Part shown: piece by piece, positions 8,818-63,162 of the stretch
How positions within the stretch are numbered: the stretch's first letter is position 1
How the letters are laid out: each line of letters starts with the position of its first letter
Translations under genes and position numbers: made by a program
Notes under the pieces: model-generated
The model's input: only the letters and a program-made list of their open reading frames with translations
Told to the model about the DNA's origin: nothing
The model's database searches: none
Assembly (NCBI RefSeq): GCF_003568665.1
Contig: NZ_QXMH01000001.1
Span: 1,178,001 to 1,242,000 of the forward strand
Direction: 5' to 3'
DNA from: Chitinophaga alhagiae
GTDB lineage: Bacteria > Bacteroidota > Bacteroidia > Chitinophagales > Chitinophagaceae
Length of the DNA stretch: 64,000 nt

Positions 8818-9008
8818 ACCTATTTCAGGACTAGACCCTGACCGATGTACACAGACCTATATCCTACCTATATCCTACCTATATCAGACCTATATTAGAC
8901 CTATATCACACCTATATTAGACCTAGTTCCTACCTAGTTCCTACCTAGTTCCTACCTAGTTCACACCTAGTTCAGAACTAGTTCCTACCCAGATTAAACC
9001 TGGTTAAG
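8818..9008. repeat. 11-bp tandem repeat array (14 clear units plus degenerate ones)
   Basis: From 8855 to 9008 there are 14 consecutive 11-base units with consensus ACCTAKWTCNN. The first six are of the ACCTATATCNN type and the next five of the ACCTAGTTCNN type; the last three are degenerate. Two more degenerate units (8818-8828 and 8829-8839) precede them, out of phase by four bases. The array sits directly after the aspS terminator. Function unknown; the period is close to one DNA helical turn. Confidence 0.9.
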
Positions 9009-26412: not shown

Positions 26413-27846
26413 ATGAAAAAAAGCAAGCCCGCCAAAAAGGGGTTTACACCTTTCAAAGAAAATAAATCCAGCAACAAACCGGCATTTCAACGTGGCCCGA
26501 AAAGTGGTTTCGGAGATGGGGAAGACCGGCCTAAAAAGCGCTTTGGTGGTGACGATGACAAACCGAAGAGAACTTTCCGTGACAGTGAAGACCGGCCCAA
26601 AAAGCGCTTTGCGAAAGACGATGACCGGCCGAAGAGAAGTTTCGGTGACGGGGAAGACCGCCCCAAAAAACGCTTTGCGAAAGACGATGACCGGCCGAAG
26701 AGAAGTTTCGGTGACGGGGAAGACCGCCCAAAAAAACGCTTTGCGAAAGATACTGACCGGCCGAAGAGAAGTTTCCGTGACAGTGAAGACCGCCCCAAAA
26801 AACGCTTTGCGAAAGACGATGACCGGCCGAAGAGAAGTTTCGGTGACAGTGAAGACCGGCCCAAAAAGCGCTTTGCGAAAGATGATGACCGGCCGAAGAG
26901 AAGTTTCGGTGACGGTGAAGACCGCCCTAAAAAGCGCTTTGCGAAAGACGATGACCGGCCGAAGAAAAGTTTCGGTGACGGTGAAGACCGCCCTAAAAAG
27001 CGCTTTGCAAAAGATAATGACAGGCCGAAGAAAAAGAGCGAACGCAAAGCCGCTGTACACGGCACCAAGTCCAACAAACCGAAAAGCACCCGCAAACGCA
27101 TAGCCATTGAGGCCCCTGCGGAAGCAGACACCGCGGAAATGCCGCTGAACAAGTTCATTGCCCATTGCGGCATCTGCAGCCGGCGCAAGGCGGTAGACTA
27201 TATCAAGGAAGGGCGTGTAACCGTTAACGGTGAAAAAATAATAGAGCCCGCGTTCAAGGTAACCGGCAAAGACGCCGTGAAGCTGGACGATAAACGCATC
27301 CTCCTGCAAAAGAACCTGGTATACGTATTGCTCAACAAACCGAAAGGCTACATCACCACCACAGACGATCCCGAAGGCCGGCAAACCGTTATGGAACTGG
27401 TGGAAGATGCGGCGGAAGAAAGGCTCTACCCCGTAGGCCGCCTTGACCGCAATACCTCCGGCCTGCTGCTGCTCACCAACGATGGGGAGCTGGCGCAGAA
27501 ACTGGCACACCCCAAACACAACATCAAAAAGATATACCACGTAGAGCTTGACAAGCCCCTTACCAAGGCAGACTTCGAAAAGATACTGGGCGGCGTTACC
27601 CTGGAAGACGGGGCCGCCTTTGTAGACGCGCTGGGGTACGTGGACAGTAAGGATAAAAAACAGATCGGCATCGAGATCCACAGCGGTAAAAACCGCATTG
27701 TGCGCCGCATCTTCGAACACCTGCAATATTCAGTGGAGAAGCTGGACAGGGTGATGTACGCCGGCCTTACCAAAAAGAACCTGAACCGCGGCAAATGGCG
27801 CTTCCTGACAGACAAGGAAGTGATCCTGCTCAAACATTTCAAATAA
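26413..27846 (+). CDS. RsuA/RluB-family pseudouridine synthase with a 22-residue tandem-repeat N-terminal domain
   Basis: 477 residues. The enzymatic half is ordinary: S4 RNA-binding domain from about 243 (PLNKFIAHCGICSRRKAVDY, KEGRVTVNG), then the synthase domain with VLLNKPKGYITTTDD and catalytic Asp345 in GRLDRNTSG. It converts uridine to pseudouridine, most likely in 23S rRNA. Odd: residues 37-212 are eight copies of a 22-residue unit, consensus EDRPKKRFAKDDDRPKRSFG plus two more residues, dense in Lys, Arg and Asp and almost certainly disordered. Residues 213-242 form a basic linker. Typical RluB proteins have only short tails. It ends in a clear terminator. Confidence 0.93.
   Translation: MKKSKPAKKGFTPFKENKSSNKPAFQRGPKSGFGDGEDRPKKRFGGDDDKPKRTFRDSEDRPKKRFAKDDDRPKRSFGDGEDRPKKRFAKDDDRPKRSFGDGEDRPKKRFAKDTDRPKRSFRDSEDRPKKRFAKDDDRPKRSFGDSEDRPKKRFAKDDDRPKRSFGDGEDRPKKRFAKDDDRPKKSFGDGEDRPKKRFAKDNDRPKKKSERKAAVHGTKSNKPKSTRKRIAIEAPAEADTAEMPLNKFIAHCGICSRRKAVDYIKEGRVTVNGEKIIEPAFKVTGKDAVKLDDKRILLQKNLVYVLLNKPKGYITTTDDPEGRQTVMELVEDAAEERLYPVGRLDRNTSGLLLLTNDGELAQKLAHPKHNIKKIYHVELDKPLTKADFEKILGGVTLEDGAAFVDALGYVDSKDKKQIGIEIHSGKNRIVRRIFEHLQYSVEKLDRVMYAGLTKKNLNRGKWRFLTDKEVILLKHFK
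26521..27048 (+). repeat. eight 66-bp tandem repeats within the pseudouridine synthase gene
   Basis: In-frame repeats of 66 bp (22 codons), from residue 37 to 212. The central copies are almost identical at the DNA level; the first and last are the most diverged. They encode an alternating Lys/Arg and Asp/Glu sequence. Confidence 0.95.
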
Positions 27847-58513: not shown

Positions 58514-60058
58514 ATGCGCAGATTAACCTCCTTATCCTTGATTGTAGGCACCGGTGTGATGTTGTCCATGTCGGCGTGTAAGAACGGGGGCCTTTTCGGG
58601 AAGAAGAAAGAATCCTCGTCCGCTACCGGGTGGACGTATAACGACCCTAAAATGGGCGGATTTTCCGTTGCCAAAAATAAAGACCAGTTTACCGGGCCGG
58701 GCCTTGTGTTTGTGCAGGGCGGCACCTTTGCCATGGGCGCCACCGAGCAAGACGTGATGTCTGACTGGAACAATATACCCCGCCGTATCACGGTATCTTC
58801 GTTCTATATAGACGAAACGGAAGTATCCAACGTGAACTACCGCGAGTACCTGTACTGGATTACCCGCATGTACGGCGAATCTTTCCCGGACGTATACCGC
58901 GACGCCCTGCCCGACTCCCTGGTATGGCGTAGCGAACTGGCTTATAACGAGCCGCTGGTAGAATATTACTTCCGCCACCCGGCCTATAACGATTACCCGG
59001 TTGTAGGCGTAACCTGGAAGCAGGCTACGGACTATGCCAAATGGCGCTCCAACCGTGTGAACGAAAAGTTGCTGATGGACGCAGGGCTGCTTTCCAAGGC
59101 AGACATCATGAACCAGGCAGACGATAATACTTTTGACAGCAAATCATACATGGCCGGCCTCTATGAAGGTACTCCCGGCAAAATGAGCAAAAGCTCAAAG
59201 AAACAATTCAGCAACCCTGACGGTTCTCCCCGCGGCGCGCAGTTTGAAGACGGCATCATGCTGCCTAACTACCGCCTGCCCACAGAAGCGGAATGGGAAT
59301 ATGCGGCGCTGGGCTACATAGGCCAGAACCCGAGCCCTTCCAAAAAAGAAGGTAAACGCGGTGAAGAGCTGATCCTCAACAAACAGATCTACTCCTGGGG
59401 CACCAACAACAGCGGCCTGCGCGATATCCGCCGTGGTAACTGGCAAGGCCAGTTCCTCGCTAACTTCAAGCGCGGCTCCGGTGACAACATGGGTATGGCC
59501 GGCGGCCTGAACGACCGTGCGTCTATCCCCGCTCCGGTACAATCCTATTTCCCGAACACTTTTGGTATCTATAACATGTCTGGCAACGTGAGCGAGTGGG
59601 TACAGGACGTATACAGGCCGCTTACCACCATTGATGGTGACGACTTCAACTACTTCCGCGGTAACAAATTCCAGACGGTTTACCAGAACGCAGAAAAAGA
59701 ATTTGAAAAAGACAGCCTGGGCGCGCTTAAAATGCGTGACGTAACAGATGAAGAATCTGCCAGCCGCCTCAACTACCAGAAAGGGGACGTAATCAACTAC
59801 CTGGACGGTGACTCTCTCTCCCTGGTGGAATACGGCTACGGCATCACCTCCCTGGTCAACGATAAATCAAGAGTGATCAAAGGCGGCAGCTGGAACGACC
59901 GTGCATACTGGCTTTCTCCCGGCAACCGCCGCTTCATGCAGGAAGACATGGCCACCAACACCGTTGGTTTCCGTTGCGCCATGGACCGCGTGGGCAGCCC
60001 CGAAGGCAACAAGTTCAAAACCGGCCAGGTGTTCAAGAAACAACGCCAGAAAAGATAG
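58514..60058 (+). CDS. gldJ: gliding motility / T9SS lipoprotein GldJ
   Basis: 514 residues. Lipoprotein signal ending SACK; an FGE-sulfatase (SUMF1) fold domain that lacks a sulfatase-activating role in this family: GLVFVQGGTFAMGATEQD, LPTEAEWEYAALGY, GIYNMSGNVSEWVQDVY, IKGGSWNDRAYWLSPGNRRF and TVGFRCAMD. GldJ is part of the gliding machinery and T9SS stability in Flavobacterium, where, as I recall, it is also next to porU and porV. The related GldK is a separate, closely similar protein; the porU neighbourhood decides for GldJ. Divergent from porU, with a long hairpin terminator. Confidence 0.9.
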   Translation: MRRLTSLSLIVGTGVMLSMSACKNGGLFGKKKESSSATGWTYNDPKMGGFSVAKNKDQFTGPGLVFVQGGTFAMGATEQDVMSDWNNIPRRITVSSFYIDETEVSNVNYREYLYWITRMYGESFPDVYRDALPDSLVWRSELAYNEPLVEYYFRHPAYNDYPVVGVTWKQATDYAKWRSNRVNEKLLMDAGLLSKADIMNQADDNTFDSKSYMAGLYEGTPGKMSKSSKKQFSNPDGSPRGAQFEDGIMLPNYRLPTEAEWEYAALGYIGQNPSPSKKEGKRGEELILNKQIYSWGTNNSGLRDIRRGNWQGQFLANFKRGSGDNMGMAGGLNDRASIPAPVQSYFPNTFGIYNMSGNVSEWVQDVYRPLTTIDGDDFNYFRGNKFQTVYQNAEKEFEKDSLGALKMRDVTDEESASRLNYQKGDVINYLDGDSLSLVEYGYGITSLVNDKSRVIKGGSWNDRAYWLSPGNRRFMQEDMATNTVGFRCAMDRVGSPEGNKFKTGQVFKKQRQKR

Positions 60059-60081: not shown

Positions 60082-60116
60082 AAAACGGGAAAGAAGATGG
60101 TCTTCTTTCCCGTTTT
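60082..60116. terminator. long bidirectional terminator between gldJ and the peroxiredoxin fusion
   Basis: Sixteen-base perfect stem (60082-60097 with 60101-60116) with a 3-nt loop, A-rich and T-rich on opposite sides. Confidence 0.9.
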
Positions 60117-60141: not shown

Positions 60142-61347
60142 TCAGCGTTTTGACCTGGCTTTAGGCACGGCCTTGCGGGCTGCAGGCTTGGCTTTAGCTG
60201 CAACTTTCTTGGCCGCTGCTTTTTTAGGAGTGGCTTTTTTCGCTGCTGCTTTCTTTGCTACAGGTTTGGCTTTAGCCGCAACTTTCTTGGCCGCTGCTTT
60301 TTTAGGAGTGGCTTTCTTTGCTGCTGCTTTCTTTGCTACAGGTTTGGCTTTAGCCGCAACTTTCTTGGCCGCTGCTTTTTTAGGAGTGGCTTTCTTTGCT
60401 GCTGCCTTCTTCGCTACAGGTTTGGCTTTAGCCGCAACTTTCTTGGCCGCTGCTTTTTTAGGAGTGGCTTTTTTCGCTGCTGGCTTCTTGGGAGCAGCTT
60501 TCTTGGACGCGGCCTTTTTAGGCGCTGCTTTCTTTGCAGCAGGTTTTGCTTTCACAGCTGTCTTTTTTGCTGCTGCCTTCTTGGGAGCAGCTTTTGCCGC
60601 AGATCCTTTTGCTACCGGCTTCGCTTTAGCCGCTCCTTTTTTGACCACGGCCTTTCCAGGAGCAGGTTTAACCGCCGTCTTTTTCTTTGCAGCAGCCTTC
60701 TTCGATGCCGCTACCTCCGCAGCTTTTTCCTGTTCAGCCGCCTCTTCAGAAGCAGCCGTAGCAATCCCCTTCGCTTTGCTCATTACATCATGAATTTCCT
60801 CAATAGCCTCCGCATCCGGCGTGTTCACGGCTTCTGCGGGAGCTTCCTCCACCGGCGCGCTCCGGAACGGTTCCGCCGCCTCATCTCCCTCCCATAGCGC
60901 CAGTATTTGCGCGGCATGGTCTCCATTGTCAGGCTTTTCAATGATGTGGGCAATGATACCGTTCTCGTCAATGAGGAAAGTAGTACGGTGCGTACCATCG
61001 TAGGTACGGCCCATAAAGGTTTTTTCGCCCCATACGCCGTAAGCGTTCAGGATGGAGTGGCTTTCATCTACCAGTATCGGGAAAGGCAGATCATATGTTG
61101 CCGCAAACTTACGGTGGCTCTTTTCATCGTCTTCACTGACGCCTATCACGGCGTACTCTTTTTGGAGGAGACGCGCGTGGTGGTCCCGGAGGTTACAGGC
61201 CTGGGTAGTGCATCCGGGGGTCATGTCGTGCGGATAAAAATAGAGGATCACTTTCTTTCCTGAAAAATCGGCCAGCGATGTGTCTCGGCCATGCTGGTCT
61301 TTGGCTGTAAAGGCGGGAGCAACGTCCCCGGGTTTAAGATGCTTCAC
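60142..61347 (-). CDS. Bcp-type peroxiredoxin fused to a histone-H1-like Lys/Ala-rich tail
   Basis: 401 residues. Residues 1-152 are a standard Bcp/PrxQ thiol peroxidase: peroxidatic Cys46 in MTPGCTTQAC and resolving Cys51, which reduces peroxides using thioredoxin. Residues 153-215 are an acidic linker (Glu/Ala-rich). Residues 216-401 are almost entirely Lys, Ala, Pro and Val, with PKKAAAKK and KPVAKK motifs as in eukaryotic histone H1 and the HU tails of some bacteria. Four near-identical 26-residue repeats lie near the end. A single start and no frameshift argue for a true fusion. The tail should bind DNA or other polyanions; that is inferred. It follows the M23 gene by 5 bases. Confidence 0.93.
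   Translation of the reverse strand: MKHLKPGDVAPAFTAKDQHGRDTSLADFSGKKVILYFYPHDMTPGCTTQACNLRDHHARLLQKEYAVIGVSEDDEKSHRKFAATYDLPFPILVDESHSILNAYGVWGEKTFMGRTYDGTHRTTFLIDENGIIAHIIEKPDNGDHAAQILALWEGDEAAEPFRSAPVEEAPAEAVNTPDAEAIEEIHDVMSKAKGIATAASEEAAEQEKAAEVAASKKAAAKKKTAVKPAPGKAVVKKGAAKAKPVAKGSAAKAAPKKAAAKKTAVKAKPAAKKAAPKKAASKKAAPKKPAAKKATPKKAAAKKVAAKAKPVAKKAAAKKATPKKAAAKKVAAKAKPVAKKAAAKKATPKKAAAKKVAAKAKPVAKKAAAKKATPKKAAAKKVAAKAKPAARKAVPKARSKR
60191..60482 (-). repeat. 78-bp tandem repeats (about four copies) in the peroxiredoxin tail
   Basis: Copies begin at 60191, 60269, 60347 and 60425, each 78 bp (26 codons); the last is incomplete. They encode Lys/Ala-rich units such as KKATPKKAAAKKVAAKAKP. Divergence between copies is only a few bases. 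Confidence 0.93.
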
Positions 61348-61352
61348 GGTTT

Positions 61353-63041
61353 CTAGCGTTTAAACGTCAAAGTATATGTGGTTTCATTATTGGCAATATC
61401 CGTTACGGTCAGCTTCAGCGTGTGATTACCGGGGGGGCAGTGCTCGTCAAAGCTGTAGCTGAGCACATTTCCTCTCCGTGAGAACCGCAGCCATTTCCCG
61501 TCCAGCTCCGCGCGGTATGACCGGATGCCGCTGGCATCGCTCATGGAAAAAGACATCTTTCCTGCCTTTGACAGGTTGATGCCGGGTTTCAGCCCACCCA
61601 ACGGCGTTATCCTGGGCCGTACCGTGTCTGCGGTGAGATAGAAATCACCCAGGTCCCGGAAAGTGCCTTTATACCAGCCGTCTTCATACACGGCGGCGGA
61701 AATGCTTTCTCCCGCTCCTTTCCGTACAATCACCATTTTATTTTGCAGTTCCGCCGGCACCGGCCTTACAGGCTTGATGCGCAGCCCGAAGTTATAATGC
61801 ACCGGCACCAGCGCCGTATGTAACCGGTAAGTATTGGAATACGCCGTGGCGTTGGGAATTTCAACATACCGGAAACAGATTTCGTCATACAAAGATCCTT
61901 CTTCCAGGTAAAATTCCACCGCATTATTTTCAAAAATATTCCGGGATTCTGTATACATCTTGTTGGCGCAAACCGGTACGGCGGGCGGGGTGCCGGACTG
62001 CTGTAACGTGATCTTCACGTCTGACTTGTTGCCGTATGCGTCCGTTACACGCAGGGTAACCGGGTGCGGTTGTTTGTCAGAAAGGTCTATGGTGCCGTCT
62101 CCTATCATTTCCTTGTAAATGCCCAGCTGGTTGCCCGGCAGCGCAAACAACAGTTGCACATAGGGGCCGCCCCCTTTTTTCATTTTATAGTCTATATGGG
62201 CATTGAGATAACGGGTTTCGTCATAACCGATATTGTCCAGCTGGAAGCCGCAGTCTACCTCCCCGTCCTGTATCAGCATGGCCTCGTAAATGCCGTTGGG
62301 GTTGGGGGAATTGCTTTGCCTGTCAAGCGCGGAAATACCCAGCCCCACCTTGTCTGTGGGCACGCTTACCACCGGGCGGGTGGCTGCGTAGCCTGCGGCC
62401 GTTCTTTTCACCGGCACTACAACCGGCGTTTGTTCATAAAAACTGCGGTTGCGGTCATACACCACTATGCGGGATATTTCCGGGGCACGCGTGTCAGGTA
62501 TATTGAAGCCGAACAGCATGGGGTTCAGCGGCTTTTCAGATTGCGTGTTTCGTATCTCGAAATGCAGGTGCGGCCCCGCGGAGCCGCCGGTATTGCCGCT
62601 CCAGGCTACAAATTCGCCTTTTTTGACCGGGAACAGGCCTTCCGGTATGGTGAGGTCTGCCGCCCAGCTTTCCTGCTCGTACTGCTTGCGGGTCACATAT
62701 TCATCCAGCAGCGGGTAGAACCGGTTGAGGTGGGCATACACCGTCGTATAGCCATTAGGGTGAGTGATGTACAGCACGTTGCCGAAACCGAGGTGCGAAA
62801 CGCCTACCCGGCTTACATACCCTTCCGCGGCGGCATGTACCGGCAGGTTCTCCCGTTGCTGGGTCTTGAGGTCGAGCCCGGAATGGAAGTGATTGGGGCG
62901 CAATTCCCCAAAGTTGCCGGCCAGTTCAATAGGCACGTTCAGCGGGTTCCTGAAATATCCTTTTGGGTATTGTTGTTCCGGCAAAGCCTGCCCCAACACC
63001 AGCTGGGGCATCAATAGCAACCAAACGAGCTGTCTTTTCAT
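61353..63041 (-). CDS. exported M23 family endopeptidase with C-terminal beta domains
   Basis: 562 residues, signal peptide ending VLG. The M23 (LytM) domain lies at about 35-180 with intact zinc ligands: NHFHSGLDL (His, Asp), VYAHLNRFYPLLD, and AGPHLHFEI (HxH). This is a true peptidoglycan-hydrolase type, unlike the EnvC-like protein at 48585. Residues 190-562 are Ig/beta-sandwich-like domains (TLRVTDAYGNKSDVKITL and LKLTVTDIANNETTYTLTF). Start ATG at 63041 (MKRQLVWLLLMPQ). First gene of a two-gene unit with the peroxiredoxin fusion. Confidence 0.9.
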   Translation of the reverse strand: MKRQLVWLLLMPQLVLGQALPEQQYPKGYFRNPLNVPIELAGNFGELRPNHFHSGLDLKTQQRENLPVHAAAEGYVSRVGVSHLGFGNVLYITHPNGYTTVYAHLNRFYPLLDEYVTRKQYEQESWAADLTIPEGLFPVKKGEFVAWSGNTGGSAGPHLHFEIRNTQSEKPLNPMLFGFNIPDTRAPEISRIVVYDRNRSFYEQTPVVVPVKRTAAGYAATRPVVSVPTDKVGLGISALDRQSNSPNPNGIYEAMLIQDGEVDCGFQLDNIGYDETRYLNAHIDYKMKKGGGPYVQLLFALPGNQLGIYKEMIGDGTIDLSDKQPHPVTLRVTDAYGNKSDVKITLQQSGTPPAVPVCANKMYTESRNIFENNAVEFYLEEGSLYDEICFRYVEIPNATAYSNTYRLHTALVPVHYNFGLRIKPVRPVPAELQNKMVIVRKGAGESISAAVYEDGWYKGTFRDLGDFYLTADTVRPRITPLGGLKPGINLSKAGKMSFSMSDASGIRSYRAELDGKWLRFSRRGNVLSYSFDEHCPPGNHTLKLTVTDIANNETTYTLTFKR

Positions 63042-63162
63042 CCTGTAAAAGTAATTGATATGCTGTGAAGGTTTAAAATTACGATGAAACACAATCATTT
63101 AACATATTTTTCAGCTAAAGGTGAAGGAGTTTCCTTAATTTCCGATCACCAAAACAACAGTT

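Follow-up and report, generated by a model that had tools for sequence, protein, structure and literature searches.

Tails rich in lysine, alanine and proline have been described on several bacterial proteins. Chlamydial Hc2, an H1-like protein represented by Pfam HC2, has a Lys-rich, repeat-built composition, and its size varies through the number of repeats (PMC2848022). C-terminal Lys/Ala/Pro repeats are carried by HupB and HbhA of mycobacteria; nucleoid association was lost from HupB without its PAKK/KAAK tail (PMC5676037), and DNA binding was lost from HbhA without its C-terminal domain (PMC10665949). The Lys/Ala/Pro tail of AlgP and PhaF of Pseudomonas was proposed by the authors to tether granule cargo to the chromosome; AlgP, with its KPAA tail, associates with polyphosphate granules, the even spacing of which needs the tail, and according to work cited in the same paper the tail binds DNA in vitro, while AlgP seems to contact the nucleoid as a whole when polyphosphate kinases are missing (PMC9239181). 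Judged from HupB, HbhA and AlgP, DNA is thus a well-supported partner of such tails but not the sole one.

Peroxidases of the BCP class are found at chromatin or in the nucleus of eukaryotes, namely PfnPrx of Plasmodium and Dot5 of yeast, the latter with a basic N-terminal region. PfnPrx is listed as nuclear, its primary paper (cited in PMC3337327) being titled as on a genome-wide chromatin-associated protein, and it occurs in chromatin fractions (PMC3337327, PMC4053738). Dot5 is a nuclear thiol peroxidase that acts with Tsa1 to suppress gross chromosomal rearrangements (PMC2688748). Both reach DNA by entering the nucleus, and the passages on them in these papers describe no histone-like tail of the kind reported below.

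The protein considered here is encoded in a 64,000-nucleotide stretch of the Chitinophaga alhagiae genome (6.13 Mb in 15 contigs), and this whole stretch is called the window throughout. The domain, the fold and the cysteine pair are those of PrxQ/Bcp enzymes of the bacterial type, e.g. Sulfolobus Bcp1 (3drn) and Xanthomonas PrxQ (5iiz); those enzymes end near residue 155, whereas the window protein gains about 250 residues of linker and tail. The coordinates of the features are collected in Table 1. The open frame reaches only four codons further upstream of the GTG start, and the closest relative (L010) has a GTG at the same position.

Table 1. Features of the tailed peroxidase gene (prx) and its surroundings, in window coordinates.
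Feature	Position	Strand	Basis
Complete gene for the PrxQ/Bcp peroxidase with acidic linker and Lys/Ala/Pro tail (401 aa from a GTG; stop at 60142-60144)	60142..61347	-	ORF list, Pfam, NCBIfam
PrxQ/Bcp peroxiredoxin domain, residues 1-153	60889..61347	-	Pfam, NCBIfam, PDB sequence and fold comparison
Cys46 codon, expected peroxidatic cysteine (P39-x3-T43-x2-C46)	61210..61212	-	Invariant in alignment
Cys51 codon, expected resolving cysteine	61195..61197	-	Invariant in alignment
Acidic linker, residues 154-207, net charge -12	60727..60888	-	Charge count
Predicted helix within or beside the linker, residues 179-199	60751..60813	-	AlphaFold2, confidence only about 50-60
Lys/Ala/Pro tail, residues 208-401, net charge +71	60145..60726	-	Composition; Pfam HC2 over cut-off
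Four 78-bp tandem repeats (26 residues each) within the tail	60179..60489	-	Tandem Repeats Finder
M23 peptidase gene, upstream of prx, 5 bases ahead of its start	61353..63098	-	Pfam Peptidase_M23
Convergent neighbour with FGE-sulfatase-like domain	58514..60058	+	Pfam
Inverted repeat of 16 pairs in the gap separating prx from its convergent neighbour, likely shared terminator	60082..60116	.	Consensus scan, reported on + strand

The identity of the peroxidase domain was examined by profile, sequence and fold comparison. Pfam AhpC-TSA matched residues 6-134 at 1.8e-40, and the NCBIfam model PRK09437 (thioredoxin-dependent thiol peroxidase) scored 176.6 bits against a cut-off of 140, while the narrower PrxQ model NF053650 stayed below its cut-off (135.1 versus 260). 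In the PDB sequence comparison, 28 distinct sequences were matched at E <= 1e-10 (best 3.5e-26); the top Foldseek matches were Bcp/PrxQ chains with a target-normalised TM of about 0.8, and the yeast nuclear thiol peroxidase 2a4v was among the fold matches at rank 34. P39, T43, C46, C51 and R121 were invariant in the alignment (n=19), which gives the P-x3-T-x2-C motif, a conserved arginine and a second cysteine five residues past the first. We take Cys46 to be the peroxidatic and Cys51 the resolving cysteine, from general knowledge of the family and of PrxQ, respectively, and R121, the arginine conserved in the alignment, is presumably the catalytic one. Most of the peroxidase domain was confident in the AlphaFold2 model built from 19 sequences, with a confidence of about 50 in the tail. 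By sequence and predicted fold the window protein is an ordinary PrxQ/Bcp thiol peroxidase, its activity being predicted. The same genome encodes another PrxQ-like protein (L002, contig C11 at 100569), which has a signal-like start and no tail.

An earlier note on this DNA had described a complete Bcp/PrxQ enzyme with Cys46 and Cys51, followed by an acidic linker and by about 185 residues of Lys/Ala/Pro tail with 78-bp repeats, and this description was borne out: the domain was recognised by Pfam and NCBIfam with both cysteines invariant, the linker was acidic by charge count, 194 tail residues were counted and the repeats were recovered by Tandem Repeats Finder (period 78, 4.0 copies, 95% matches). 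The tail consists largely of Ala (0.40), Lys (0.36) and Pro (0.09), with one acidic residue and no large hydrophobic one. Its likeness to H1 and HupB tails, also put forward in the note, held for composition, since Pfam HC2 (histone H1-like nucleoprotein) matched residues 255-397 with 45.7 bits over a cut-off of 40, but did not extend to the NCBIfam histone H1-like model, which gave 39.2 bits against a cut-off of 80; because that cut-off was missed, the window protein is not filed as an Hc2/H1-like member. The HC2 match may reflect composition rather than descent. An open frame of 206 residues with a hydrophobic repeat runs antisense over the tail (60173-60793, + strand) and most likely just follows from the Lys/Ala codons.

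The first domain sets this protein apart from the described systems. Hc2 is a free-standing DNA-binding protein, whereas in Chitinophaga the comparable sequence is a tail on an enzyme; the first domain of HupB is HU and that of HbhA is a helical adhesin, neither of them an antioxidant enzyme; and AlgP and PhaF have a granule-binding domain, whereas a search of the window protein for a granule-binding domain, phasin-type or other, found none, Pfam at E <= 0.001 giving only peroxiredoxin-type and HC2 matches.

The distribution of the tail was determined first within the genus. The enzyme was present in 78 of 79 Chitinophaga genomes (E <= 1e-40), the sole genome lacking a match (G309) being listed as 80% complete. 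Fifteen of the 78 enzymes had intact tails (open frames of 405-510 residues), one was broken by frameshifts, and 62 frames (at most 196 residues) were too short for a tail, 23 of them read as sequence (L020-L038, L040, L041, L186, L187) and the other 39 judged by open-frame length. The broken copy (L184, genome G314, a low-quality assembly with completeness 65) was inspected by translation in three forward frames; its frame stops in the linker, and Lys/Ala/Pro stretches lie in other frames downstream. A long frame was found in 11 genomes of a first draw of 60. The possibility, raised in the earlier note, that relatives always have the enzyme without the tail is therefore excluded (16 of 78 enzyme-bearing genomes tailed, 15 intact), and an assembly or frameshift artefact is ruled out, since the 15 intact orthologues share one architecture and five of them lie in genomes listed as one contig (G024, G032, G035, G055, G305).

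In named records, tailed peroxiredoxins 79-81% identical to that of the window were found in C. barathri (L067), an uncultured Chitinophaga (L068) and a record titled C. pinensis isolate 3 (L069); of the 80 best-scoring loci in that collection of named records, three were tailed, all titled Chitinophaga. In the family scan the enzyme was matched in at least 223 of 244 genomes, and, among the matches listed, no C-terminal tail was seen outside the genus in 26 family loci (L039-L066 minus L040 and L041) and four further long family frames, nor in one further long frame of the class that was read as sequence. When 395 genomes of the class were searched with the full-length protein, 26 matched at E <= 1e-54 including that of the window, and the other 25 matches stop by query residue 157. 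In the phylum scan 121 of 158 genomes matched the enzyme (E <= 1e-38); seven of the eight frames longer than 205 residues besides that of the window were read (G357, 206 residues, left out), and all seven were lengthened upstream and had no C-terminal tail.

When 43 peroxidase domains were placed on a tree, the tailed ones (16 rows) formed one clade (support 98/87, one change of state), with the tail-less L020 (genome G039) as its sister, so a single gain of the tail is the simplest history. The gene neighbourhood was compared over 43 Chitinophaga loci, which include a few same-genome duplicates: the M23 peptidase gene, which probably shares an operon with prx, was upstream in 43 of 43, tailed or tail-less alike. 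Since the upstream neighbour is the same in both states, an existing gene was extended by the tail at its 3' end. The promoter scan found none. The convergent FGE-domain gene, presumably GldJ, was present in 38 of 43 loci. Two of the exceptions, L013 and L067 (C. barathri), have only 276 bases past the prx stop; in the other three (L011, L012, L181) the 609-684 bases past the stop carry other short reading frames, so a different neighbour adjoins prx in this sub-branch.

Capture of the tail from a neighbouring histone-like gene was considered and is not supported, the locus being the same with and without the tail; a free-standing Lys/Ala/Pro protein of the genome (L003) lies away from prx, on contig C1 at 238341. 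The likeness of the tail DNA to such genes was no higher than that of codon shuffles, of which 27 of 200 reached it for L003 and 85 of 200 for L005; the tails of three positive controls (L010, L014, L019) also stayed within their 100 shuffles, so this test of tail origin has little power.

A basic extension was also found at the opposite end of the enzyme in a second genus of the Chitinophagaceae. The family locus L208 (genome G141) has a Lys/Ala-rich N-terminal arm ahead of the peroxidase domain, and the enzyme was present in 14 of 14 genomes of this genus (L208, L210-L223). With inferred start codons, the arm was 31-45 residues long in ten of the 14, with 8-17 basic and one or two acidic residues, and four had a shorter start of 14-19 residues. 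The M23 neighbour adjoins prx in 13 of the 14 genomes, and the gene is for this reason regarded as orthologous. Because the arm and the C-terminal tail are at opposite ends of the gene, they were apparently gained separately, as judged by position rather than by a joint tree. The arm is, as far as the sequences go, the strongest hint that positive charge itself is selected.

Constraint on the tail was estimated from the 15 intact copies, in all of which the order of peroxidase, acidic linker and basic tail is kept. The tails have 194-294 residues, a net charge of +71 to +106, at most six acidic residues and at most two of FWYILMCH; their letters, length and repeat pattern differ among copies while charge and composition hold in 15 of 15. 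For linker plus tail, dN/dS was computable in six of ten pairs, with values of 0.140, 0.133, 0.093, 0.053, 0.068 and 0.110, silent sites being saturated there in the other four; the peroxidase domain gave 0.037-0.124 in ten pairs. In each of the ten pairs the tail exceeded the enzyme in silent divergence, so the tail values are rough, with repeat units possibly misaligned, and they suggest constraint on composition rather than exact rates. These data bear on the explanation that the tail is a tolerated repeat expansion without a function of its own. Its variability would agree with that, as would the four near-identical 78-bp units, which point to recent duplication, and the recurrence of Lys/Ala/Pro tracts on unrelated Chitinophaga proteins; but the length and charge limits kept by all intact copies, the low dN/dS in six of six computable pairs and the rise of a basic extension at the other end of an orthologue argue against it, and we regard it as improbable.

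The linkers of the same 15 copies have 35-112 residues with a net charge of -5 to -28, and the peroxidase domains are acidic as well (calculated pI 4.8-5.9). An acidic linker thus abuts a basic tail in every intact copy, beside an acidic enzyme, from which it could be argued that the tail acts on the enzyme itself, with charge pairing between linker and tail altering oligomerisation, solubility or activity, or driving condensates, in place of any tether. No trustworthy contact of the tail was present in the AlphaFold2 model, however, and the fold does not depend on the tail, since the 62 tail-less orthologues among the 78 are ordinary full-length peroxidases; this explanation is given very little weight. 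Short helix-like segments, e.g. DPVEKAKAVVQEL, SPVEKAVRAF and EEIHDVMSKAK, recur in some linkers (L009, L010, L011, L012, L181, L019, L185) and are perhaps a docking helix.

The reading that we prefer, by a narrow balance of probability and on the evidence of sequence, is that in one lineage of Chitinophaga, a soil bacterium, the tail permanently tethers a normal PrxQ/Bcp to the nucleoid. The polycationic tail would bind DNA regardless of sequence, in the manner of H1-, HupB- and AlgP-type tails; the tethered enzyme would stay on the nucleoid and clear hydrogen peroxide or organic peroxides near DNA; and the acidic linker would hold the tail off the acidic surface of the enzyme and tune the affinity of the tail. 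The acidity of the linker in all intact copies would also fit the suggestion, made in the earlier note beside that of a nucleoid tether, that the linker could mask the tail. Tethering is plausible, and retention throughout the clade and the arm of the second genus strengthen the case for it, but 62 of the 78 genus genomes do without the tail and no loss of the ferritin/Dps family accompanies it. A role of the tail as a substitute for a lost Dps was not supported either: PF00210, which does not separate Dps from ferritin, was matched in 79 of 79 genomes, with two matches in 16 of 16 tailed ones.

The partner of the tail was further considered from similar tails in the genus. An HC2-like match (E <= 1e-4) was found in 68 of 79 Chitinophaga genomes, prx tails included, and in the tail search of the own genome only L003 and L005 were otherwise read as proteins with such a stretch (E <= 1). 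Long Lys/Ala/Pro C-terminal tails were observed on RNase R-like proteins (L195, 503-3445, L196 and L197; genomes G054, G059 and G004, respectively), of which L195 has a confirmed RNB domain. An SLT-domain, lytic transglycosylase-like protein (L198, 599-1942, genome G040) ends in a Lys-rich tail; it has a signal-like start as judged by eye and is probably exported, so that its tail would not meet DNA. Small free-standing Lys/Ala/Pro proteins were also observed (L003 and L005 of the own genome, L201, L202), some with a short conserved start that we take to be DUF6496.

A Lys/Ala/Pro tail by itself therefore does not mean DNA, being also carried by RNase R and an SLT-domain protein, and with such tails on these and on free-standing proteins a non-DNA partner keeps real weight. 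The tail could bind another polyanion, RNA or ribosomes or polyphosphate granules, and place the peroxidase there and not on DNA. The granule-associated KPAA tail of AlgP is a precedent (PMC9239181), two polyphosphate kinase matches over the cut-off were found in the own genome, and the similar tail of RNase R in the same genus sits on an RNA enzyme. Yet the tail of AlgP has affinity for DNA as well, and the nucleoid as a whole is the apparent partner of AlgP when polyphosphate kinases are missing (PMC9239181); nothing specific to the window protein favours RNA or polyphosphate, so we consider another polyanion unlikely, though the most serious competitor of the nucleoid.

Both halves of the protein are of known kinds; their combination in a bacterium was not found in the open-licence literature searched, in which the titles and abstract openings listed gave no bacterial peroxiredoxin with such a tail. 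It is tentatively proposed, at somewhat less than an even chance, that the Chitinophagaceae have at least twice made the same housekeeping peroxidase DNA-tethered, by the C-terminal tail in one Chitinophaga clade and by the shorter Lys/Ala N-terminal arm in the second genus. If true, bacteria would have a counterpart to the eukaryotic chromatin-bound PrxQ-type peroxidases, and peroxide removal beside the chromosome would be worth a dedicated targeting device in them; to our knowledge, an intracellular address is not usually considered necessary in bacteria for small diffusible oxidants or abundant soluble antioxidants. The tailed clade and its tail-less relatives at one locus are a natural experiment, which allows DNA damage, mutation rate and peroxide survival to be compared between tethered and untethered forms of one enzyme, and the N-terminal arm of the second genus would be its replicate.

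Two further repeat arrays were observed in the window. A pseudouridine synthase gene (S4 and PseudoU_synth_2 domains; 26413-27846, + strand) has an N-terminal region made of eight 66-bp repeats and rich in charged residues, and an 11-bp tandem repeat array lies at 8852-8989.
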